The notes under the pieces: model-generated
Database searches by the model: none
What the model was told of the DNA's origin: nothing
What the model saw: only the letters and a program-made list of their open reading frames with translations
Part shown: positions 22,626 to 33,062 of the stretch, one piece after another
Position numbering within the stretch: the first letter of the stretch is position 1
Layout: each line of letters begins with the position of its first letter
Made by a program: the position numbers and the translations under genes
From: Corallococcus coralloides DSM 2259
GTDB lineage: Bacteria > Myxococcota > Myxococcia > Myxococcales > Myxococcaceae
NCBI RefSeq assembly: GCF_000255295.1
Contig: NC_017030.1
Span: 8,158,328-8,222,327 of the forward strand
Direction of reading: 5' to 3'
DNA length: 64,000 nt

Positions 22626-23513
22626 CTAAGTGAAAGACCGTACAAGCATGACGAAGAGGAACACGAAGTAGCTCCGCGCCGCTAACCGTCCCGACTGAGC
22701 CCGCGGCCTGCGGCTCTTGAAGAACAGCATCAGATTGATCACCGCCATTCCCAGGGGCAGCAGGAAGAGCCAGCCTGGGGTCAGCCACAGGTAGAGCCCC
22801 GACGCTCCGGCCATCATCGCGAAGGCAATCACCGCGCTGGCCGTGGAGCCCACTTCGTCTGAGTAGAGCTTCTCTCCCGGCTTCGTGGTCCCGAGCCACG
22901 CCGTCTTCCGCATCACCTCCCAGTGCAGATAGAGGAAGACCATTGCCAGGATTGCCAGCAGTCCCTGTGGATTCAGCGGCGTTCCGGTGCGCTCCGCGTG
23001 CGCTACCCAGACGTAGAGGCCGTGGCCCACGTGGAGCTGGATGGCGATTCCAATCATCAGGAACATGCTGCGCTGGTACGCGACCCAGTGCTTCTCCAGC
23101 GCCCAGAGCACCAATGCGTGCACCATGATTCCAAGCAGAATCGCGGCCCTTACCCAGGACACGGCCAAATTCGTCCCTAGCAACACGGCCGCGTTGAGCC
23201 CCAGCGCCACGTACAGGTCTCCGAAACTGACGTCCCCTTTCGCCAGACCCCGGTTGGGGTTGTGGACCAGGTCGTATTCGTAGTCGCGCAGCTCATCCAC
23301 GATGCGCATGAAGTAGCCCACGCCGAAGATGCTCAGCGCGACGTGCAGCAGGTCCAGGGAGAACGCCAGCCCCCTGCCCCCGTCGAGCACGCCAAACATC
23401 CCGTCCAGGCTCACGCACCAGAGTGAGACCACCAGCAGGTAGAACAGCGGCGGGTAACGCTGCACGGAGAAGCGCAGCGTCGCCCGCGCCCGGTCCATGA
23501 CGGTCCTGCTCAT
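22626..23513 (-). CDS. UbiA-family prenyltransferase (295 aa)
   Basis: A membrane protein with about nine helices. The Asp-rich motif DELRDYEYD (D73, D77, D81) followed by VHNPNRGLAKGDVS matches the first metal/pyrophosphate-binding motif and the following R-x-L-x-x-G-x-I-S stretch of UbiA enzymes. The second DxxxD-type motif is not obvious; a KPGEKLYSDEVGS stretch sits where it is expected. UbiA proteins transfer prenyl chains onto aromatic or glycerol-type acceptors in the membrane. The ATG at 23513 overlaps the stop of the upstream dikinase gene (ATGA), so the two are translationally coupled. It is the last gene of the AfsA-like operon. Acceptor unknown; a prenylated lipid or signal is inferred. 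Confidence 0.85.
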   Translation of the reverse strand: MSRTVMDRARATLRFSVQRYPPLFYLLVVSLWCVSLDGMFGVLDGGRGLAFSLDLLHVALSIFGVGYFMRIVDELRDYEYDLVHNPNRGLAKGDVSFGDLYVALGLNAAVLLGTNLAVSWVRAAILLGIMVHALVLWALEKHWVAYQRSMFLMIGIAIQLHVGHGLYVWVAHAERTGTPLNPQGLLAILAMVFLYLHWEVMRKTAWLGTTKPGEKLYSDEVGSTASAVIAFAMMAGASGLYLWLTPGWLFLLPLGMAVINLMLFFKSRRPRAQSGRLAARSYFVFLFVMLVRSFT

Positions 23514-26206
23514 GCCGCCACCAGCGTGACGGTTCCCGTGGAACCATCCACTCGGACCCTCGCTCCGTCCGGGATGCGCGTGGTCGCATTCGCCACTCCC
23601 ACCACCGTGGGGATGCCGAACTTCCGGCCCGCGATGGCTGTGTGCGACAGCATGCTGCCGCGCTCCACCACGATGCCTCCCGACGCCAGCATCAGGAACA
23701 GCCAACCGGGGTCCGTCTCCTTCGCGATGAGGATGTCGTCCTTGCCCAGCGTGCCCACCGCGCCCGGGTCCAGCACGATGCGCGCGGTCCCCTCCACGAT
23801 GCCCGCGCTCGAACCGATTCCCTTGAACAGCGAGGCGTTGTCGCTCGCGGCCTCCACGACCCTCGGGATGCCGTCCGCCACGCTGCCCACCGTGGTGAAG
23901 TCCCTTGGCGGCTGGCGATCCTGGTTGTCCTGCTGCTCCCGCCGCCGCAGCTTCGTGAGCTCGCCCAGGTTCCTCGTGACGCTCCGGCCCTCGAAGTGGT
24001 CCAGCACCTCGCGCATCGTGAGGTAATGCACGTCCAGCGGCGCATCCAGCACGCCCCGCTCCGCCATCCGCTGACCGAGCGCCGCGAACACCTGCTTGCT
24101 GAAGCCGAAGAGCTGGCCTCGCCAGAACCGGCTGTCCTCGCGCAGGCCAATCACCGTCCGCAGCCCTGCCAGGAGCTTCTCGATGGCCAGCTTCCGCAGC
24201 GGATGCCCCTGGAGGAGCGTGGCCAGCTGCGCTTCCGCCTCCGTGCGCCTTGCCCTGTCCGATGTCCTCAACTCCTCACGCGTCACCGACGAACGCGCGT
24301 AGGACTGGACGACTCGCACCAGGTCCCACGGCGTGTCCCGCAGGTTCGGTCGCTCCACGTTCAGCTCCTGCACGCCCCGGTCCCCGAACTCGCTCAGGTG
24401 CTCACGGAAGGCGCGAGCGACTCCAGGCGGCACATCCCCCGCGTCGATGCTCCGCCAGAGGGCTTCCGCCTCGCCTTCGTCGAAGCGCTTCGCCAGCGCC
24501 GGGTCCGCTCGCACCATCTCCGCGAGCGCCACCGCGGAGAGCAACGCGTGAGTACCCGCGTCCGGCTTTGCCCCGCACATCAGGCCCACCAGCAACGCGC
24601 TGGGGTCTTCCCCGGTCCACTTGAGCAACAGCCTGCGCGCCAGCCCGAAGCACGTGTTGATGTACCAGTGATTGATGAGCGTCAGGCCCCACCAGTTCCC
24701 CACCTCCGTCCAGACGTGCCGGAAGTGATGGATGAGGACCAGCGGGTCCTCCTTCTCCACGGGTCGAGCCCTGAGCCCCGCGAGCGTTCGCTTCCACCAG
24801 GCCTCGAATGCGTCGAAGTCCCGCTGGAACGTCGCGGTGACAGACAGCGCGCCCAGCGCGGAACGCCCCAGCGCGTATGCGTAGCTCGCCGTATTGGAGA
24901 AGCTCTCGCGGTGGCCCGGCAGCCGGATGACCAGCGATGCGTCCCGCTGGAGCACGTCCTCCAGGTCCCGCATGGAGGTGGCCGCGATGAACGGGTTGAT
25001 GCCATTGACGTGCATCAGGTTCGACAGCGAGTGGTAGACGCGCCCGTCGATGAACCCCAGCATGTTCTGGAACGCGGGCGTCTGGTCGTGCAGGGCCCTC
25101 GCGTCCGCGCCCTTCATGCGGCGCAGCAGGTCGTAGAAGATGACCTCGTAGAAGTAGCTGGCCAGTGAGTACGTCAGCGGCGTCGTGACACCCGGGAAGC
25201 TCTCCGAGACGTTGCCGCATCCCCATACACGGATCTTCCGGAAGTCGAACGCGATGGGCCGCGCCTGCAATACGTGCAGCGTGCCGTCCTCCGTGAAGGT
25301 GCCCTCGATGTCCTGGGGCATGCCGAAGCTGCGCTCGATGTCCTTCGCCAGCGCGGCCAGCCGCTTCAGCTCTTCATCCGTGAGGCACGGCGCGTCCCGC
25401 AGGTGCTCCGGCACGGGGCGGCGGACCAGCTCGCCTCCGGGCTCGGGGTTCTCACAGAGCATGTCTGCCTTGTGGGCCAGCTCCCGGTCGATGTGGCCCG
25501 TCTCCGGGTGGATGAAGTAGTGGTCCACGCCCACCTTCTCCTGGACCACCCCTTCCCCGATGCCGTGCCCCGCGACGACCAGCGTGCGACGCTCGGTCGT
25601 CTTCGGGTCGCATGTGAAGGCCACGAACGAGCGGCGGCCGGGGATCATCCGCTGCACTCCCACCGCCACCATCAGCCCCCGGACGTCGCGGCCCTGCGCC
25701 AGCCGATAGATGAGCCCCTCCGGCGTGTAGGCGGAGGCCCAGCAGCGGCGGATGCGGTCCAGCAGCGTGTCCCTCCGCACGTAGAGGAACGTGGAGCTCA
25801 CGCCCGCGAACGGGTCCGTCTCCGAGTCCTCGCTCTCATCCAGCGCACGGCCCACCACGGAGGCCCGCACGGCCACCATGCCTCCCGCGCCGAAGGTCCG
25901 GTCAAAGGCATCCAGGAGGGTGGCTTCGCGCTCGGCTCCCAGCGGAACCTGGAGGAAGAGCTTCTCAATCTCCTCCGCGACGCGGCGGATGTCCTGATGC
26001 GACGTCCGGTCCACCGACGTGGTGAGCCGGTGGATGTCGGCTTGGAGCGGAGCCGCCACCTCCTGGAACATCGTGGTCGTGAGGCAGAAGAACTCGGGGA
26101 CCGGGAAGCCGTGCTTCGCCAGGTGCTGCTGGCGCGCGAACTTCTGGCCGACGTGCTGGGGGTCGCCGGCCTCGGTCATGGAGACGAGCGGTTGGGGGGA
26201 AGGCAT
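23510..26206 (-). CDS. Rifampin-phosphotransferase-like dikinase (898 aa)
   Basis: Has the layout of PEP synthase/PPDK relatives without the PEP-binding TIM barrel. Residues 1-330 are a PPDK_N-type ATP-binding domain (VGQKFARQQHLAKHGFPVPE; VAVRASVVGRALDESED then GVSSTFLYV; EGTFTEDGTLHVLQARP). Residues 340-780 are a mainly helical domain without recognised motifs. Residues 800-898 are the swivelling phosphohistidine domain with ERGSMLSHTAIAGRKFGIP, His855 being the phosphate carrier. This order and the length of about 870-900 residues match rifampin phosphotransferase, which moves a phosphate from ATP to a small-molecule hydroxyl. It is in an operon for a small molecule, so it probably phosphorylates an intermediate. 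Confidence 0.85.
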   Translation of the reverse strand: MPSPQPLVSMTEAGDPQHVGQKFARQQHLAKHGFPVPEFFCLTTTMFQEVAAPLQADIHRLTTSVDRTSHQDIRRVAEEIEKLFLQVPLGAEREATLLDAFDRTFGAGGMVAVRASVVGRALDESEDSETDPFAGVSSTFLYVRRDTLLDRIRRCWASAYTPEGLIYRLAQGRDVRGLMVAVGVQRMIPGRRSFVAFTCDPKTTERRTLVVAGHGIGEGVVQEKVGVDHYFIHPETGHIDRELAHKADMLCENPEPGGELVRRPVPEHLRDAPCLTDEELKRLAALAKDIERSFGMPQDIEGTFTEDGTLHVLQARPIAFDFRKIRVWGCGNVSESFPGVTTPLTYSLASYFYEVIFYDLLRRMKGADARALHDQTPAFQNMLGFIDGRVYHSLSNLMHVNGINPFIAATSMRDLEDVLQRDASLVIRLPGHRESFSNTASYAYALGRSALGALSVTATFQRDFDAFEAWWKRTLAGLRARPVEKEDPLVLIHHFRHVWTEVGNWWGLTLINHWYINTCFGLARRLLLKWTGEDPSALLVGLMCGAKPDAGTHALLSAVALAEMVRADPALAKRFDEGEAEALWRSIDAGDVPPGVARAFREHLSEFGDRGVQELNVERPNLRDTPWDLVRVVQSYARSSVTREELRTSDRARRTEAEAQLATLLQGHPLRKLAIEKLLAGLRTVIGLREDSRFWRGQLFGFSKQVFAALGQRMAERGVLDAPLDVHYLTMREVLDHFEGRSVTRNLGELTKLRRREQQDNQDRQPPRDFTTVGSVADGIPRVVEAASDNASLFKGIGSSAGIVEGTARIVLDPGAVGTLGKDDILIAKETDPGWLFLMLASGGIVVERGSMLSHTAIAGRKFGIPTVVGVANATTRIPDGARVRVDGSTGTVTLVAA

Positions 26207-26220
26207 GTCAGGGGATTCCT

Positions 26221-27183
26221 TCAGGAACGAAAGTCATTGAGCGCGCTTCGCAGGGCATCCACCGGGGACCTCGCCAACAGGTCCTCCGGCCCGAGCACCG
26301 CCGCGAGCCGCGAGACATCCAGACACTGTGAATGAGCCAGCAACTCCAGACGCTCCGCCATCGCCCGGGCCCTCCGGCTGGGGACCTCTCGCATGGCTCG
26401 CGGGAGCCAGCCGGGGGCACGGACCTTCACGAGTGGAGGGGGCAGGCCCAGCCCCCGCCCCACCGTGCCCAGGAACTCTCCTCGCAGGAGCGGTTGTGAG
26501 TACGCGACGTTGAACGCCTGCTGCTCGGGACGCGGCGTCTCCACCATCCGCCGCGCGAGTCTCCACAGAATGCGGCCCAGGTCATCCACGTCGATGACCG
26601 AGCACCCCACCGCGTCGCCCCCGACCTGCACGCCCTGCTTCAGGAGCTTCACCATCGCGGGCAGGACGAACCGGTCCCCGCGCCCGAGAAGAAAACGCGG
26701 CCTGAGCAGCGCCGCATGCAGACCGGTCCGGACCGCGTGTTCCGTGACGACGTCCTCCGCCGCCACTCGGGAGCGGGCCAGGGCAGTGACGGGCCGGAGC
26801 GGATGATCCTCCTTCACGCCCCGATGGGGGCCCGCGCCATAGACAGACATGGAGCTGCCGAAGAGGACGCCCCGGCAATCTCCCGTGAGCCGCGAGAGGA
26901 GCCGCCGTGTTCCGTCCACGTTGGTCCTCTCGTAGCCCGTGCCGTCCGTGTCCCGCTGCTTCGTGGCCAGGTGCAGGACGACGTAGGGATACGGCGGGAA
27001 CAACGCCTCCGGGATGCCGTGCAGATCTCCCCGCACGACGTTCACGCCGTCTCCCCACTCGCGGCCGTCGGGCGAGCGCACCAGCGCATGCACGGGATGT
27101 GCTCCGCGCTGGCGCAGGAACGCCTGCCCCACCATGCCGGTCGCGCCCGTGAGCACGACTCCGAAGCCGCCTACCAGACCCAT
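26221..27183 (-). CDS. NAD-dependent epimerase/reductase (320 aa)
   Basis: Extended SDR family. The Rossmann loop is GVVLTGATGMVGQAFL at residues 8-23; GDLHG and LHLATKQRD give the second and fourth strands; FGSSMSVYG is the active-site Ser strand. The usual YxxxK is not plain: after SSMSVYG the expected position reads LARSRVAAED, so catalytic Tyr and Lys may be replaced. The gene overlaps the methyltransferase end by 13 bases and is followed after 14 bases by the dikinase gene. In butyrolactone pathways a reductase acts after the AfsA step, which makes a similar role attractive here, but substrate is unknown. Confidence 0.85.
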   Translation of the reverse strand: MGLVGGFGVVLTGATGMVGQAFLRQRGAHPVHALVRSPDGREWGDGVNVVRGDLHGIPEALFPPYPYVVLHLATKQRDTDGTGYERTNVDGTRRLLSRLTGDCRGVLFGSSMSVYGAGPHRGVKEDHPLRPVTALARSRVAAEDVVTEHAVRTGLHAALLRPRFLLGRGDRFVLPAMVKLLKQGVQVGGDAVGCSVIDVDDLGRILWRLARRMVETPRPEQQAFNVAYSQPLLRGEFLGTVGRGLGLPPPLVKVRAPGWLPRAMREVPSRRARAMAERLELLAHSQCLDVSRLAAVLGPEDLLARSPVDALRSALNDFRS

Positions 27184-27818
27184 GGGACCAGCCGCTTGCG
27201 GCTCGCCGCGTACTCGGCGTAGCCCGGAAAGGAGCCCAGCAGGAGCCGCTCCTCGTGCCGGATGCGCAGGAGGACCGCCGGCACGAACAGCAGCGCGAAC
27301 ACCGCGATGCCCACGACCGCGGGGAACACCAGCAGGTAGCCCACGTGCGCCAGCAGCATGCCGGTGTACGCCGGGTGCCGGAGCCTCCGGTACACGCCTT
27401 CCGTCACGAGCAGGCTCGCGTCCGGCAGCCGCACCCGGTGCGAATAGGCCTTCCCCAACGTGCGGATGGCCGTGAGCCGCAGCGACACCCCGGCGATGAA
27501 GCAGAACAGCCCCACGGCTCGCGGCACCGGCCCCACATCCAGCGTGGGGAGCGCGACCGCCAGGAGGATGGTGGTCAGACGGGCAATCGCATACAGCTCC
27601 AGCGTGGCGCTGTCCCGCTCCGCGGTGGGCTTGCTCGTCTCCCGCAGCGTCACCCGGCTCTCCACCAGCATCCACGTCACGTACAGGCCCAGCATCAGGG
27701 CCGCGATGGGCCGGCTGTCCTCCGGCGTCCGCAGCACCTGACGGATGCCCAGCGGAATCAGCAGCCCCACGCCCGTCACCAGCAGCAGCGTGGGCATCCA
27801 ACGGTGCAGGCCCTTCAT
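27171..27818 (-). CDS. Isoprenylcysteine carboxyl methyltransferase-like protein (215 aa)
   Basis: An integral membrane protein with five to six helices. The C-terminal pattern LVTEGVYRRLRHPAYTGMLL is the conserved ICMT/PEMT-type SAM-binding segment (G-x-Y-x-x-x-R-H-P-x-Y-x-G), followed by RIRHEERLLLGSFPGYAEYA, where EE and Y are conserved. Family members methylate carboxyl groups of prenylated substrates or phospholipid headgroups using S-adenosylmethionine at the membrane. The ATG at 27818 overlaps the AfsA-like stop by four bases. In this operon the likely substrate is the same hydrophobic, perhaps prenylated, molecule made by its neighbours. Confidence 0.87.
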   Translation of the reverse strand: MKGLHRWMPTLLLVTGVGLLIPLGIRQVLRTPEDSRPIAALMLGLYVTWMLVESRVTLRETSKPTAERDSATLELYAIARLTTILLAVALPTLDVGPVPRAVGLFCFIAGVSLRLTAIRTLGKAYSHRVRLPDASLLVTEGVYRRLRHPAYTGMLLAHVGYLLVFPAVVGIAVFALLFVPAVLLRIRHEERLLLGSFPGYAEYAASRKRLVPWVW

Positions 27819-28639
27819 GACGCCGCCTTCGCGCTCACGGCGCCAATCAGCCCCGAGTAGCAGCAGGTGTCTTCCTGCCAGCCCTGCACGGCGATCCACA
27901 TGCGGTTGCGGCGCCCGTCGCTGCGCACCGGCTCCGCCCACTCCGGGAGCCGGAAGCTGGCGAAGGTGCGGATCACCACCGGCACGTCGGTGCGCACGAA
28001 GCGCCGGAACTCCAGCGTCAGGCGCGTCAGGATGAGCGACCAGTCCAGCGGCAGCCCCACACCGTGGATGGCCGCGATGGCCGCCTGCCGGGCCAGCTCC
28101 GTGAGGAGCATGCCCTGCACGTGCTCGGAGGGATGGTCGAAGACGAACTCCGGCGAATCGGTGAACGCGTTGAACTGATGGAGCGCCCCCACCCGGCAGG
28201 CGTTGGCGAGCAGCACGTTCGCCGGGTCGCGCTTGTGCACGAGCACCGGGTCGATGCGCTCCAGCGGCCGGGCCTGCTCCGCCTCACTGAAGGACTGCCG
28301 TCCCTCGGAGACGGGGTTGCGCACGGGGATGCGGGCCAGGAGCTCGGAGACGTTCTCCGGCGGATCCTTCTTCCACTGCTCGCCCACGCGCACGCCCACT
28401 GGCGTGGCATCCGCCCACTCCGCCAGCGCGGGGAACTCGGCGGCGCGCGCGCCCAGGTAGAGGCCGCAGTGCTCCTGCAGCACGGCGGCCAGGAACTCCG
28501 CCTCCTCCACGCTCTTCACCGGGATGCGACAGGGGTGCTCGACTTCCGAAAGAAGGGGGTCCGGGACGAGCAGGAAGGGGACGGCCTCCGGCGACGCCAC
28601 CCGCAAGCGGCGCTCGGGATGACTGGAAACGGAATCCAT
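27815..28639 (-). CDS. AfsA-type hotdog protein (A-factor biosynthesis-like, 274 aa)
   Basis: Resembles AfsA, the enzyme that joins a beta-ketoacyl-thioester to dihydroxyacetone phosphate to start gamma-butyrolactone hormone synthesis in Streptomyces. The signature VHKRDPANVLLANACR (residues 134-149) corresponds to the VHKR...VLLT strand of the AfsA hotdog repeat, and FDHPSEHVQGMLLTELARQ (168-186) to the following helix with its E-x-x-RQ. An N-terminal repeat is less clear, though GVRVGEQWKKDPPENVSE could be a remnant. Length is close to AfsA (about 300). First gene of a five-gene operon. Its ribosome binding site lies in a hairpin (28642-28672). Family membership is fairly sure; the actual product is inferred. 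Confidence 0.8.
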   Translation of the reverse strand: MDSVSSHPERRLRVASPEAVPFLLVPDPLLSEVEHPCRIPVKSVEEAEFLAAVLQEHCGLYLGARAAEFPALAEWADATPVGVRVGEQWKKDPPENVSELLARIPVRNPVSEGRQSFSEAEQARPLERIDPVLVHKRDPANVLLANACRVGALHQFNAFTDSPEFVFDHPSEHVQGMLLTELARQAAIAAIHGVGLPLDWSLILTRLTLEFRRFVRTDVPVVIRTFASFRLPEWAEPVRSDGRRNRMWIAVQGWQEDTCCYSGLIGAVSAKAAS

Positions 28640-28641
28640 GT

Positions 28642-28672
28642 CTGCCTTTCTCCAACTGAGGGGGAAAGGCAG
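28642..28672 (-). promoter_or_regulatory. Hairpin covering the ribosome binding site of the AfsA-like gene
   Basis: Perfect 9-bp inverted repeat CTGCCTTTC / GAAAGGCAG with a 13-base loop, ending two bases before the ATG at 28639. In the mRNA the 3' arm includes the AAAGG that forms the ribosome binding site, 5 bases from the start. Folding would hide it, so translation of the operon's first gene could be controlled by something that opens the stem. Confidence 0.6.
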
Positions 28673-28735
28673 TCTAGGAATCGCGATGTCTCAACACGAG
28701 AACCGGGGAAGGCCCGCTTTCACGAGGCGGGAGAT

Positions 28736-28761
28736 CAGACCCGCAGGGATTCGTGGGTCTG
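28736..28761. promoter_or_regulatory. Dyad upstream of the AfsA-like operon
   Basis: CAGACCC / GGGTCTG, 7 bp perfect with a 12-base spacer, about 100-120 bases upstream of the AfsA-like start. It is flanked by two direct copies of TTTCACGA (28718-28725 and 28762-28769). Candidate operator for a regulator of the operon, or a terminator for the preceding gene that ends at 28829. Confidence 0.4.
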
Positions 28762-28828
28762 TTTCACGAACCATCATGACACGTCGCGAAATGCGTCTTG
28801 GATTGAGACGGCCGGTGCGCCCTCCGGC

Positions 28829-30595
28829 TCACTGTCCCTCGGGAGACTCCGGTTCACAGCGGACCAGCACCTCCAGCTTCTCCCCACCACCGCCCAGGTA
28901 GATGGTGCCCGTCGTGGGCGTCGCGTCGGAGTACTGGCGACCCACCGCCACGCGCACGTGGTGTGTCTGCGTGAGGATACCGTTCGTGGGATCGAAGCCC
29001 TTCCAGCCGACCTCCGGAAGGTAGACCTGCACCCACGCGTGGGAGGCCTCCGCCTGCGCCGTGTTCGCGTGCTTGGGCCCCGTGTAGAGGTAGCCGCACA
29101 CGTAGCGCGCCGGCACACCCAAGAGACGCGCCAGGCAGATGAACACGTTGGCGAAGTCCTGACACACGCCCTTGCGCGCCGAGTACACGCTGAAGGCCGT
29201 GGTGTTCAGCGTCGTGGTGCCCTGCGCGTACTGGTACTCCTTGAAGATGGAGTAGTTGATGTCCAGCAGCGTGTCCAAGAGGTCGTAGTCGTTGCGGCGC
29301 GCGAAGCTCATCGCGTACTCCAGCAACTCCTCCAGCTGCGTGTCCGGCAGCTCCGGCGGCAGCAGGTACGGCTGGAGCATGTTCGCCTGCCACGGCATCC
29401 ACACCAGCGGCAGCACCGAGCGCACGTGCAGCGGCCGGTACCCCAGCGGATCCGTGTCCCGCAGCTCCACGCGCGAACGGGCCTCCATCACCAGCTCCGT
29501 GTAGGGCGTGTCCACCACCGCGCGGCGCACGCGGTTGCCGAAGACGTCCTCGTACTCCGACCGCGTCACCCCTACCGACAGCTTCACTTCATGTGACAGC
29601 AGCGACTGGAGCCGGTCATGCATCGGCGTCAGCCGAAGCAGGTGCGAGCTGCGCTCCACCGGCCTGTCGTAGCGGTAGACCGTGCGGTGCAACACGTCCA
29701 TCACCCGCACCGGCATCTCCGGCGGCCGGCGCAGGCGGCTTCGCGCCTCGAACTCCGCCGCCATCGCGGGCGCGACCGTCCCCTTCCCTTCCGCCTCCGG
29801 CGGCAGCACCTCCACACGGATGGCCCCCTGGCGCACCAGCACCAGCGCGCCCGGCGACAGCTGCGTCCAGTTCGCGTCCACCTCCGTGCGCGACGCCAGC
29901 GGCTGCGTGGCGACGATGACGCCCTTGCGGCTCTTGGCGCCCCGGCGCGTGAGGTCCAGCTCCACGTCGTCGTCGCCCAGCACCAGCCGCTCGTAGGGCG
30001 GCGACACCTGCCATACCCACGCCTGCGTCGCGTTGGTGCGGTCCGCGTACACACACAAATCCCTGCCGTCCGACACCACCAGCGTCAGCGGCCCCAGGCG
30101 GTTCATCTCCTCCAGCCACGCGCGCAGGCGGGGCGCGTCCACGTCCCCCAGGCTCCGCCAGCCCTGCTCCTGCATCCAGTCCAGGAAGCGGCAGAACAGC
30201 GTCTCCGAGTCCGTGGAGCCCACCGGTTCGAAGCGCGCCCCCGGCGCGATCTGGAGCCGCTGCTCCAGGCTGCCGCTGTGCGCGAGCAGCCAGTCCCGGC
30301 CCCAGGCGCTGCGCACGAAGGGCTGCGTGTTGGCCTCCGTGAGAGGGCCCCACGTCGCCGTGCGCAGGTGCAGCATCAGCAGCGAGGACTCCAGCGGATC
30401 CCACGTGGCCACCAGCTCACTGCGGCGGCTGTGCAGCTGGGGCGCGGCTTCCTTGAGCACCGTGGCCGCGAACTCGCCGCCCGGGTAGTAGCCCACGCCC
30501 CAGCCGTCCGGAGGCTTCTGTCCGGGGGCGAGGCAGCGCAGGTCCAGGCCAGGGGCGAGCTCTCCCTCGAAGGACAGCGCGAGCAGGTTCAACAT
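28829..30595 (-). CDS. Glutamine amidotransferase-like/transglutaminase fusion (588 aa)
   Basis: N-terminal residues 1-270 match class II glutamine amidotransferases of the YafJ type (LLALSFEGELAPG; GWGVGYYPGG; LHLRTATWGPLTEANTQPF; LLAHSGSL). However, the N-terminal nucleophile Cys2 is missing: the chain begins Met-Leu (codon TTG). Residues 300-588 are a bacterial transglutaminase-like domain with its N-terminal beta module (LHRTVYRYDRPVERSSHLLRL) and an intact triad Cys478 (RKGVCQDFAN), His519 (ASHAWVQV) and Asp535 (GFDPTNG). It is the third gene of a conserved trio with the alpha-E and circularly permuted ATP-grasp proteins, thought to build or break a peptide-like product. The start is 11 bases after the alpha-E stop. 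Confidence 0.88.
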   Translation of the reverse strand: MLNLLALSFEGELAPGLDLRCLAPGQKPPDGWGVGYYPGGEFAATVLKEAAPQLHSRRSELVATWDPLESSLLMLHLRTATWGPLTEANTQPFVRSAWGRDWLLAHSGSLEQRLQIAPGARFEPVGSTDSETLFCRFLDWMQEQGWRSLGDVDAPRLRAWLEEMNRLGPLTLVVSDGRDLCVYADRTNATQAWVWQVSPPYERLVLGDDDVELDLTRRGAKSRKGVIVATQPLASRTEVDANWTQLSPGALVLVRQGAIRVEVLPPEAEGKGTVAPAMAAEFEARSRLRRPPEMPVRVMDVLHRTVYRYDRPVERSSHLLRLTPMHDRLQSLLSHEVKLSVGVTRSEYEDVFGNRVRRAVVDTPYTELVMEARSRVELRDTDPLGYRPLHVRSVLPLVWMPWQANMLQPYLLPPELPDTQLEELLEYAMSFARRNDYDLLDTLLDINYSIFKEYQYAQGTTTLNTTAFSVYSARKGVCQDFANVFICLARLLGVPARYVCGYLYTGPKHANTAQAEASHAWVQVYLPEVGWKGFDPTNGILTQTHHVRVAVGRQYSDATPTTGTIYLGGGGEKLEVLVRCEPESPEGQ

Positions 30596-30606
30596 GGCGG
30601 CGGACT

Positions 30607-31593
30607 CTATCCGGCCATCTCCTGGGTGCCCACCTGCGCGGGCGCCTTGCCGAAAAAATCACGGGTGATGCTCGTGCAGAGCGCGTCCGTGCCCTCCACC
30701 ATGCGCGTGAGCAGCGCGTGCACCGACGCGCCCTCCGGCTCCAGCGTCTGGGGCTTCAGCTGTTCCACCAGGGGCACCAGCTGGTTCAGGCACTCCTCTC
30801 CCGGCTGCCCCCGGCCCACCACCGGACACAGGTGTCCCAGGTAGCGCCAGGCGGACTCCAGGCAGTGGCGCACGGAGCGCGGGAAGCGCGGCTCGAACAG
30901 CAGGAACGCCGCCACCGCGTCTCCCGTCACCCGGCCCTGGTGGCTCTTCATGAAGGGCTCGAAGCCGGAGCATGCGCGCAGGAGCGACAGCCACAGCGCC
31001 GTCTCCACCACGCGGTGCGTGTGCCGCATCTGGCTGAAGACGTGGTGGTGCACGTCCAACAGCCGCGACGTCTGCCCCACCCGCTCCAGCATCACGCCCA
31101 GCCAGATGAACTCCTGGGGCGTGTCGTGCAGCATGGTGCTGTCCAGGAAGCCCAGGCACAGCTGCACCATGCGCCGGATGTGCTGGTAGAAGCCGAAGCG
31201 CGACGCGGCGTACTCCGCCCGGCCCGCCTCGCCGGTGAGGAAGTGGTACAGCTCGTTGGTCACCTCCCAGCACTCGCGGCTGATCACCTCGCGGATGGTG
31301 CGCGCGTTGTCCCGCGCCATCACCACCGTGGCCATCAGGCTGGAAAGGTTGTCCTCCTCCCAGGTGAGGAAGTCCTGCACCTTCTCGCCGTCGGCTTCCG
31401 CCTTCGCGCCGTGCTTGCGCGCGAAGGCTTCGCGCTCGCCGAAGATGGCCAGCGCCGGCATCCAGGACTGGTCCGCGGGCAGGTCCGCGTCCAGCGCCAG
31501 CTGATCCGTCATCTGCAGCACCCGCGCGACGCTCTCCAGCCGCTCCAGGTAGCGCCCCAGCCAGAAGCAGTGCTCCGCGATGCGGGCGATCAT
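30607..31593 (-). CDS. Alpha-E domain-containing protein (328 aa)
   Basis: An all-helical cytoplasmic protein of the alpha-E family. The N-terminus MIARIAEHCFWLGRYLERLE is the family signature, and later HDTPQEFIWLGVMLERVGQTSRLLDVHHH is also typical. It has no known independent activity but is nearly always next to a circularly permuted ATP-grasp protein and a transglutaminase, as here, and is believed to be part of the same peptide-bond-forming system. The ATG at 31593 has a strong AGGAGG site and overlaps the ATP-grasp stop by four bases. Confidence 0.92.
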   Translation of the reverse strand: MIARIAEHCFWLGRYLERLESVARVLQMTDQLALDADLPADQSWMPALAIFGEREAFARKHGAKAEADGEKVQDFLTWEEDNLSSLMATVVMARDNARTIREVISRECWEVTNELYHFLTGEAGRAEYAASRFGFYQHIRRMVQLCLGFLDSTMLHDTPQEFIWLGVMLERVGQTSRLLDVHHHVFSQMRHTHRVVETALWLSLLRACSGFEPFMKSHQGRVTGDAVAAFLLFEPRFPRSVRHCLESAWRYLGHLCPVVGRGQPGEECLNQLVPLVEQLKPQTLEPEGASVHALLTRMVEGTDALCTSITRDFFGKAPAQVGTQEMAG

Positions 31594-33062
31594 GCGTCCT
31601 CCTTCTGCACCCAGGTGTCCTTGGAGCCACCACCCTGGCTGGAGTTCACCACGTAGGAGCCCGCGCGCAGCGCCACGCGCGACAGGCCTCCTGGCAGCAC
31701 CCAGGGCCCCTGCGGCGAGGTGAGGATGTACGGGCGCAGGTCCACGCGGCGGGCCACGACCTGACCGCTCGCCGCGTCCCAGGTGGGGCACGTGGACAGC
31801 TCCACGCGCGGCTGCGCGATGTAGCGGCGCGGCTGGGCGAGGATGCGCTGGCGGAAGTCCTCGCGCTCCTCCTTCGTGGACTGCGGTCCCATCAACATGC
31901 CGTAGCCGCCGGCCTCGTCCACCGCCTTCACCACCAGCTCCTCCAGGTGCTCCAGCACGTAGCGGCGGTCGTCCTCGCGCGCGCAGACGTACGTGGGCAC
32001 CTGCGCGAGCAGCGCGGGCTCCCCCAGGTAGTAGCGGATGATTTCCGGCACGAACGCGTACACCGCCTTGTCGTCCGCCACGCCGTTGCCCGGCGCGTTG
32101 GCGAGCGCCACGTTGCCCGCGGCCCACGCACGCATCAGCCCCGGAACGCCCAGCATGCTGTCCGGGCGGAAGGCCTCCGGGTCGATGAAGGCGTCGTCGA
32201 TGCGGCGGTAGATGACGTGCACGCGCTTGGGTCCGCGCGTGGTGCGCAGCCATACGCGGTCGTCGTCCACGAAGAGGTCCGCGCCGTGCACCAGCTCCAC
32301 GCCCATGGTGCGCGCGAGGAAGCTGTGCTCGAAGTAGGCGGAGTTGTACGGGCCCGGCGTCAGCACCACCGCGGTGGAGCGGTCCGGATCCACCGGCGAT
32401 GACGCGCGCAGCGTCTCCGCGAGCTTCGCCGGGTAGTGGTCCACGCGCCGCACCCGCGTGCGCTCCAGCACCTCCGGCAGCACGCGCTTGGAGAGCACCC
32501 GCCCCTCCATCACGTACGACACGCCCGACGGCGTGCGCAGGTTGTCCTCCAGCACGCGGAAGGTGCCCTGCCCGTCGCGGATGAGGTCGATGCCCGCGAT
32601 GTGGATGCGCACGCCGCCCGCCGGCCGCACCCCGCGCAGCTTCGGCAGGTACTGGGACGTGCCCAGCACCATGGCCTTGAGCTCCGGGCGTCCTTCGAAG
32701 ATGCGCTGCTCGCCGTAGACGTCGTCCAGGAACAGGCCCAGCGCTCTCACGCGCTGCTCCAGCCCGCGCTCCACCTGCGCCCAGTCCGACGCCGACACCA
32801 GCCGGGGGATGAGGCAGAAGGGGAAGATGCGCTCCGTGCCGCGCCGGTCCGCGTAGACGGAGAACGTCACGCCCTGGTTCATCAGCGCCCGCTCCGCCAG
32901 CGCCTGCATCCGGGAGAACTCCTCCGGGGAGCGCGCGCCCAGCCGATCCAGCAATCGCAGCACGTCCGGCCGTGGCGTGTCGCCCGCGCCCAACAGCTCA
33001 TCCCAGGTGCCCGGCTGGATGGCGTATCCGTCGAAGAGTCCTCGGACCTGAAGCTGCCTCAT
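31590..33062 (-). CDS. Circularly permuted ATP-grasp type 2 protein (490 aa)
   Basis: Belongs to the DUF404/DUF407 circularly permuted ATP-grasp family. Visible features include VTFSVYADRRGTERIFPFCLIPR in the N-terminal part, FRVLEDNLRTPSGVSYVMEGR (the metal-binding E-D-N segment placed before the rest of the domain because of the permutation), VIYRRIDDAFIDPEAF, NAPGNGVADDKAVYAFVPE and VVKAVDEAGGYGMLMG near the C-terminus. It is predicted to ligate an amino acid or peptide carboxylate to an amine. First gene of the trio with the alpha-E and transglutaminase fusion. The 268 bases upstream contain clear dyads. Confidence 0.92.
   Translation of the reverse strand: MRQLQVRGLFDGYAIQPGTWDELLGAGDTPRPDVLRLLDRLGARSPEEFSRMQALAERALMNQGVTFSVYADRRGTERIFPFCLIPRLVSASDWAQVERGLEQRVRALGLFLDDVYGEQRIFEGRPELKAMVLGTSQYLPKLRGVRPAGGVRIHIAGIDLIRDGQGTFRVLEDNLRTPSGVSYVMEGRVLSKRVLPEVLERTRVRRVDHYPAKLAETLRASSPVDPDRSTAVVLTPGPYNSAYFEHSFLARTMGVELVHGADLFVDDDRVWLRTTRGPKRVHVIYRRIDDAFIDPEAFRPDSMLGVPGLMRAWAAGNVALANAPGNGVADDKAVYAFVPEIIRYYLGEPALLAQVPTYVCAREDDRRYVLEHLEELVVKAVDEAGGYGMLMGPQSTKEEREDFRQRILAQPRRYIAQPRVELSTCPTWDAASGQVVARRVDLRPYILTSPQGPWVLPGGLSRVALRAGSYVVNSSQGGGSKDTWVQKEDA

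Follow-up and report, generated by a model that had tools for sequence, protein, structure and literature searches.

A conserved palindrome across the ribosome binding site and candidate promoter of an AfsA-like operon in Corallococcus coralloides

The AfsA-like operon and its leader

The window, which is the whole 64,000-nt (64-kb) stretch of Corallococcus coralloides DNA that was analysed, carries on its minus strand an operon headed by an AfsA-like gene (27815–28639). The 274-aa product shares the PF03756 hotdog domain (residues 133–229; 79.2 bits, cut-off 24) with the AfsA/ScbA gamma-butyrolactone synthases. It differs from them in having a single PF03756 stretch and in scoring 51.1 bits against the ScbA/BarX equivalog, below the cut-off of 200. 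The genes that follow, all on the minus strand, encode an ICMT/PEMT-like methyltransferase (27171–27818), an NAD-dependent epimerase/reductase of the SDR type (26221–27183), a PEP-synthase-like phosphotransferase/ligase with PPDK_N and mobile His domains (23510–26206), and a UbiA-like prenyltransferase (22626–23513). The last of these assignments is weak (PRK13592, 42 of 443 bits), and a Pfam search of the UbiA-like protein gave no match. The PEP-synthase-like protein also matches, along most of its sequence but below cut-off, rifamycin phosphotransferase and the prodigiosin ligases PigC/RedH, and perhaps carries out a ligase or kinase step of a small-molecule pathway. An earlier reading of the letters alone, the first-pass annotation, had described the genes after the first as coupled, and the junctions bear this out. 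ATGA overlaps join the methyltransferase gene to the AfsA-like gene and the prenyltransferase gene to the PEP-synthase-like gene, the methyltransferase and epimerase genes share a longer overlap, and a short gap separates the epimerase gene from the PEP-synthase-like gene.

On the minus strand, two perfectly complementary 9-bp arms separated by a 13-nt loop are followed by AC and then by the ATG of the AfsA-like gene (28637–28639). The 5' arm, CTGCCTTTC, occupies 28664–28672, the loop, CCCCTCAGTTGGA, 28651–28663, and the 3' arm, GAAAGGCAG, 28642–28650, within the ribosome binding region; together they make up an interrupted palindrome of 31 bp. Consensus folding of the aligned loci described below adds two further invariant C–G pairs beyond a bulged A. 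The first-pass annotation had reported a perfect 9-bp stem two bases before the ATG with the ribosome binding site AAAGG in its 3' arm, and both are confirmed. The Shine-Dalgarno region, GGAGAAAGG (28645–28653, minus strand), is complementary to the 3' end of 16S rRNA; all three 16S genes in the genome end in CCTCCTTTCT, which can pair with AGAAAGG. AAAGG and the G preceding it lie inside the 9-bp stem, and the GGA of GGAGAAAGG lies in the loop. Folding of the leader, which had been proposed as a check, placed the hairpin in both the MFE and the centroid structure of the minus strand of 28600–28828.

The mere existence of such a stem is not significant. Counting perfect arms of at least 9 bp with loops of 3–20 nt, the 64-kb window holds 17 distinct dyads, against a mean of 11.65 (sd 3.4) in 20 dinucleotide shuffles, and by chance about 0.7% of 40-nt leaders would carry one. 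Genome-wide this amounts to about 60 leaders, if a gene number of 8,500 is assumed. It is the conservation of the hairpin, unlike its presence, that is noteworthy.

The palindrome is also a single one. CTGYCTTTC followed within 0–30 nt by GAAAGRCAG has a single match in the 10.08-Mb genome, and the palindrome is likewise found at one place when up to three mismatches are allowed at fixed spacing, which rules out a genome-wide repeated element. The combination of GTTCTCGT, a spacer of 17–23 nt and TAGAC has one other match in the genome, with a different spacing. Among the matches listed for the 96 genomes of the family, TAGACTGYCTTTCCC with at most one mismatch lies at 47 places in 33 genomes; 30 of these places were inspected, and the second arm was present at all 15 AfsA loci and at none of the 15 others. 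G033, a genome from a different genus of the same family, has ten copies of TCGACTGTCTTTCCC among the matches listed, possibly as a mobile or repeated element.

Conservation and pairing among relatives

Orthologues were sought in the same 96 genomes, the C. coralloides locus itself being counted among the close ones. An AfsA-like match was found in 19 genomes, close in 15 (73–100% identity) and weak in four (35–39%); the close orthologues are from 13 of the 16 genomes of the own genus and from two of the seven of a second genus. The hairpin is kept at all 15 close loci, where the 78 nt from −75 to +3 (negative positions are counted upstream from the ATG) align without a gap. The 75-nt block opens with an upstream box; after a 19-nt spacer that varies more come TAGACTG, which never changes, and the palindrome, and the ATG follows the block. 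No such block was seen by eye before either of two candidate starts in each of the four weak relatives (L017–L020).

Parsimony changes were counted on a tree built from the coding sequences of afsA, in which support is weak at several nodes (lowest 29). The reference, 77 four-fold codon sites, gave 2.16 changes per site, and the region upstream of the block (−115 to −78) gave 3.8, a value inflated by the ungapped comparison. Within the block the rate is 0.63 in the upstream box (−75 to −57; 12 changes in 19 columns), 1.56 in the spacer (−56 to −39; 28 in 18 columns) and 0.25 in CTAGACTG (−38 to −31), with no change at all in TAGACTG. The hairpin has rates of 0.67 (5' arm; six in nine columns), 0.69 (loop) and 0.11 (3' arm; one in nine columns). 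The free positions in the hairpin are −30, with four changes, and −16 (28655), with six; the remaining 12 loop positions total three. The pyrimidine tract from −29 to −17 has six changes in 13 sites, against 2.16 for each four-fold site. The first eight bases of the Shine-Dalgarno region and the ATG are invariant at 15 of 15 loci. By eye, a less strictly conserved stretch around CGGGTC(T/C)TGAT was noticed at about −110 to −95 in several of the loci.

Standard pairs fill 163 of the 165 base-pair cells (11 pairs, 15 loci), and seven of the 11 pairs are invariant. The pair −30/−6 is U–A at seven loci, C–G at four, U–G at three and C·A at one; as DNA, the symmetry is thus imperfect, this pair being non-Watson–Crick at 4 of 15 loci. 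Two other pairs show U–G forms, and locus L008 has C·A at another pair. Comparison of the leader in relatives for compensating changes had been suggested by the first-pass annotation. The stem was found in every close relative, and one pair has changed on both sides, but the covariation is weak: 55 of 500 shuffles matched the observed pairing percentage and covariation score. Sliding the partners by up to three columns left 37–65% paired, and a slide of +3 gave a covariation score of 0.126, slightly higher than the 0.112 of the true register. Three of the four changes at −30 occurred in the clade where the partner is G (P 0.09). Strong covariation was not found in these shuffle and clade tests. 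From this alignment it can be said that complementarity is maintained, in a manner that would suit an RNA stem, a DNA palindrome or co-conserved neighbours, which these data do not separate.

Predicted hairpin energies at the 15 loci range from −8.1 (L011) to −15.3 kcal/mol, and the change in L008 is absorbed through a shifted pairing (−12.2 kcal/mol predicted). In long transcripts from all 15 loci, a stable stem is predicted to enclose the Shine-Dalgarno, and a 25-nt leader starting at −25 is predicted to fold weakly (−2.7 to −5.1 kcal/mol). The first-pass annotation had proposed that translation might be switched by temperature, by a ligand or by a competing RNA structure. None of the three found support: the ribosome site is predicted to be about 89% paired at 20–42 °C and still about 80% at 80 °C, so that an RNA thermometer is rejected, the predicted stem being too stable to open in the growth range; no Rfam family matched at gathering scores across the window; and no conserved competing partner, as a riboswitch-like fold would need, is present within the 78-nt aligned block. 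The consensus fold of that block contains the hairpin, one 4-pair helix in the upstream box, and nothing else.

Candidate promoter and transcription start

In −10 elements the positions that matter most are the T, A and T of TAnnnT. TAGACT, at 28671–28676 on the minus strand (−37 to −32), has all three and is invariant at 15 of 15 loci, and is proposed here as a −10 element. The invariant TAGACTG (28670–28676) overlaps the 5' arm, the first two bases of which are the last two of TAGACT. Going by the spacing to TAGACT, transcription would start about 7 nt past it, within 28662–28666, a range whose midpoint, −25 (28664), is the final base of the 5' arm. The upstream conserved box, GGCCTTCCCCGGTTCTCGT (28696–28714, minus strand, −75 to −57), ends 19 nt upstream of TAGACT; relative to a start near −25 it would lie at about −50 to −32, the usual place of a −35 or activator region, and may be one. 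Conservation ends just upstream of the box, as it does in a simple promoter. With a start above the stem, the −10 element would have to lie where the block is least conserved. The conservation pattern therefore suggests that transcripts start near 28664, inside the hairpin. This is the circumstance that the first-pass annotation had named as refuting its switch; it is suggested by the pattern of conservation, with the putative start placed from TAGACT. A sigma-70 scan of 28500–28950 called no promoter, TAGACT included, and no good −35 hexamer is evident. The proposed start also falls within a conserved all-pyrimidine tract (−30 to −19), which is unusual for a start.

For the hairpin to be part of the operon's own mRNA, transcription must start at or above 28672. 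Translation would then be switched by a ligand, a protein or a competing RNA, or by a choice of start site that includes or omits the 5' arm. This is improbable in our estimation, even though the retention of a nearly fully paired stem at every close locus is consistent with it, as are the varied forms of the −30/−6 pair and the tendency of −30 to change where its partner is G. It requires the promoter to lie further upstream, where the block has no conserved −10 element to serve it, and the pairing score is one that shuffles reach often enough; moreover, it meets neither a conserved alternative fold in the block nor an Rfam match, and the predicted stem is too stable for a thermometer. The switch interpretation of the first-pass annotation is, overall, partly supported at best. 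The choice of start site has a parallel in Escherichia coli pyrC, which has a start-site-switch hairpin. The two leaders are alike in a pyrimidine-rich start region whose inclusion could hide the ribosome site; they differ in that here the 5' arm begins within the proposed −10 element, so that the usual start would already lose the arm.

It might also be supposed that the −10 element, the initial transcribed region and the Shine-Dalgarno are each conserved independently and are complementary by chance. The chance rate of dyads in leaders given above leaves room for this, a conserved block would itself preserve a chance dyad, and the covariation is weak. However, the tract from −29 to −17 is more constrained than start regions normally need to be, and the most variable stem position is still paired at 14 of 15 loci; such a coincidence seems to us doubtful.

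Possible roles of the palindrome

A stable stem that holds the Shine-Dalgarno is likewise found in the leaders of the phage T4 genes e, soc, 49 and I-TevI. For e and I-TevI, PMC3014915 and PMC2988022 describe long transcripts that hide the ribosome site and others, made from a promoter lying within the 5'-strand DNA, that leave it open. The arrangement proposed here matches these cases. By analogy, the main function of the stem could be to block translation of transcripts arriving from upstream genes, with the operon's own promoter in the 5' arm giving a translatable mRNA. Several observations fit. The AfsA-like gene is preceded, 190 nt away, by the end of a transglutaminase gene on the same strand, no intrinsic terminator was found between the two, the hairpin forms in the predicted fold of the long leader, and the change in L008 is compensated by the shifted pairing mentioned above. 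Fourteen loci could be assessed for their upstream neighbour (L010, which ends at a contig edge, was left out). Nine have an intact same-strand neighbour, which is the transglutaminase gene in seven (L002, L004, L007, L009, L011, L012 and L013) and another gene in two (L014 and L016); in L005 a truncated same-strand remnant is present. In the other four (L003, L006, L008 and L015), however, the nearest called upstream gene is divergent and the stem is nevertheless kept, with 11, 11, 10 and 11 of 11 pairs, respectively. Some of these losses of the upstream gene are recent, for traces of it persist in divergent loci; L006 has a decayed transglutaminase tail besides its divergent neighbour. The conserved loop, too, is left unexplained. 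A lock on read-through transcripts as the main function is, in our view, rather unlikely. The parallel with the T4 leaders, so far as these sources describe them, has further limits: this is a bacterial operon and no late phage gene, its promoter and start are proposed from sequence, and in 4 of 14 assessable loci the upstream gene is divergent.

The upstream gene set itself (28829–33062) comprises CP-ATP-grasp, alpha-E and GATase/transglutaminase genes, and appears to have been lost or truncated in L003, L005/L023, L006, L008 and L015. The transglutaminase gene of C. interemptor (L023) ends directly next to the beginning of the ATP-grasp gene.

The explanation that we consider best, and hold tentatively, is a promoter whose start is spanned by a palindrome working at the DNA level. 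The hairpin would then be the 3' half of a conserved promoter and ribosome-binding module of the AfsA-like operon. With TAGACT as the −10 element, the operon's own transcripts would begin near −25 (28664) and lack most of the 5' arm, leaving the ribosome binding site open, and the palindrome would exert no folding-based control on the main mRNA. It would most likely act in double-stranded DNA, as an operator whose binding protein would span the start site. Additionally or instead, transcripts from further upstream may fold the hairpin, and the operon would stay untranslated on them.

The proposed operator half-sites read GYCTTTCnCC, and a third similar copy, GCCTTCCCC, lies within the upstream box (28705–28713, minus strand, −74 to −66) as a direct repeat of GCCTTTCCC in the 5' arm. 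This copy is at most one mismatch from GYCTTTCCC at 12 of 15 loci and missing at three, and the inverted copy of GYCTTTCCC, the 3' arm, is present at all 15. At the density of the window, 0.018 such 9-mers would be expected per 37 nt; the copy was spotted post hoc, and shared ancestry makes it one observation rather than twelve. The loop has changed about as little as the 5' arm, a constraint that base pairing by itself would not impose, and at 15 of 15 loci the palindrome is conserved at the candidate promoter, itself proposed from the same alignment. The persistence of the palindrome at the 4 of 14 assessable loci with a divergent upstream gene also fits an operator. Repressor operators that overlap the −10 element and the start site form a general class, of which TetR-type sites are an example. 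The likeness here lies in a 31-bp interrupted palindrome across the proposed start, together with an upstream half-site-like copy, and the differences in the lack of a second genomic site and in the imperfect symmetry in some relatives. An operator usually recurs or adjoins the gene of its regulator; here, the palindrome is single in the genome, and a Pfam scan of 16 proteins from the window revealed no DNA-binding domain.

One palindrome might even do two jobs, as a DNA operator at the start and as an RNA lock on transcripts begun elsewhere, although we think such a combination improbable. If it were true, expression of this small-molecule (AfsA-type) operon would depend on which promoter made the message, and the device of T4 lysozyme and I-TevI would have a chromosomal counterpart. 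Should the lock hold in itself, it would provide a cellular example of the control device described for T4 in the corresponding passages of PMC3014915 and PMC2988022.

The literature searched contained no paper naming both Corallococcus and AfsA. If transcription does start inside the stem, the locus would caution against calling ribosome-site hairpins translational switches before the start is known, and the conservation of the surrounding promoter would be what decides. The palindrome probably spans the transcription start and so resembles a DNA control site, or a lock on stray transcripts, more than a heat- or ligand-sensing RNA switch. It also gives an uncharacterised AfsA-type operon in Corallococcus a candidate control site.
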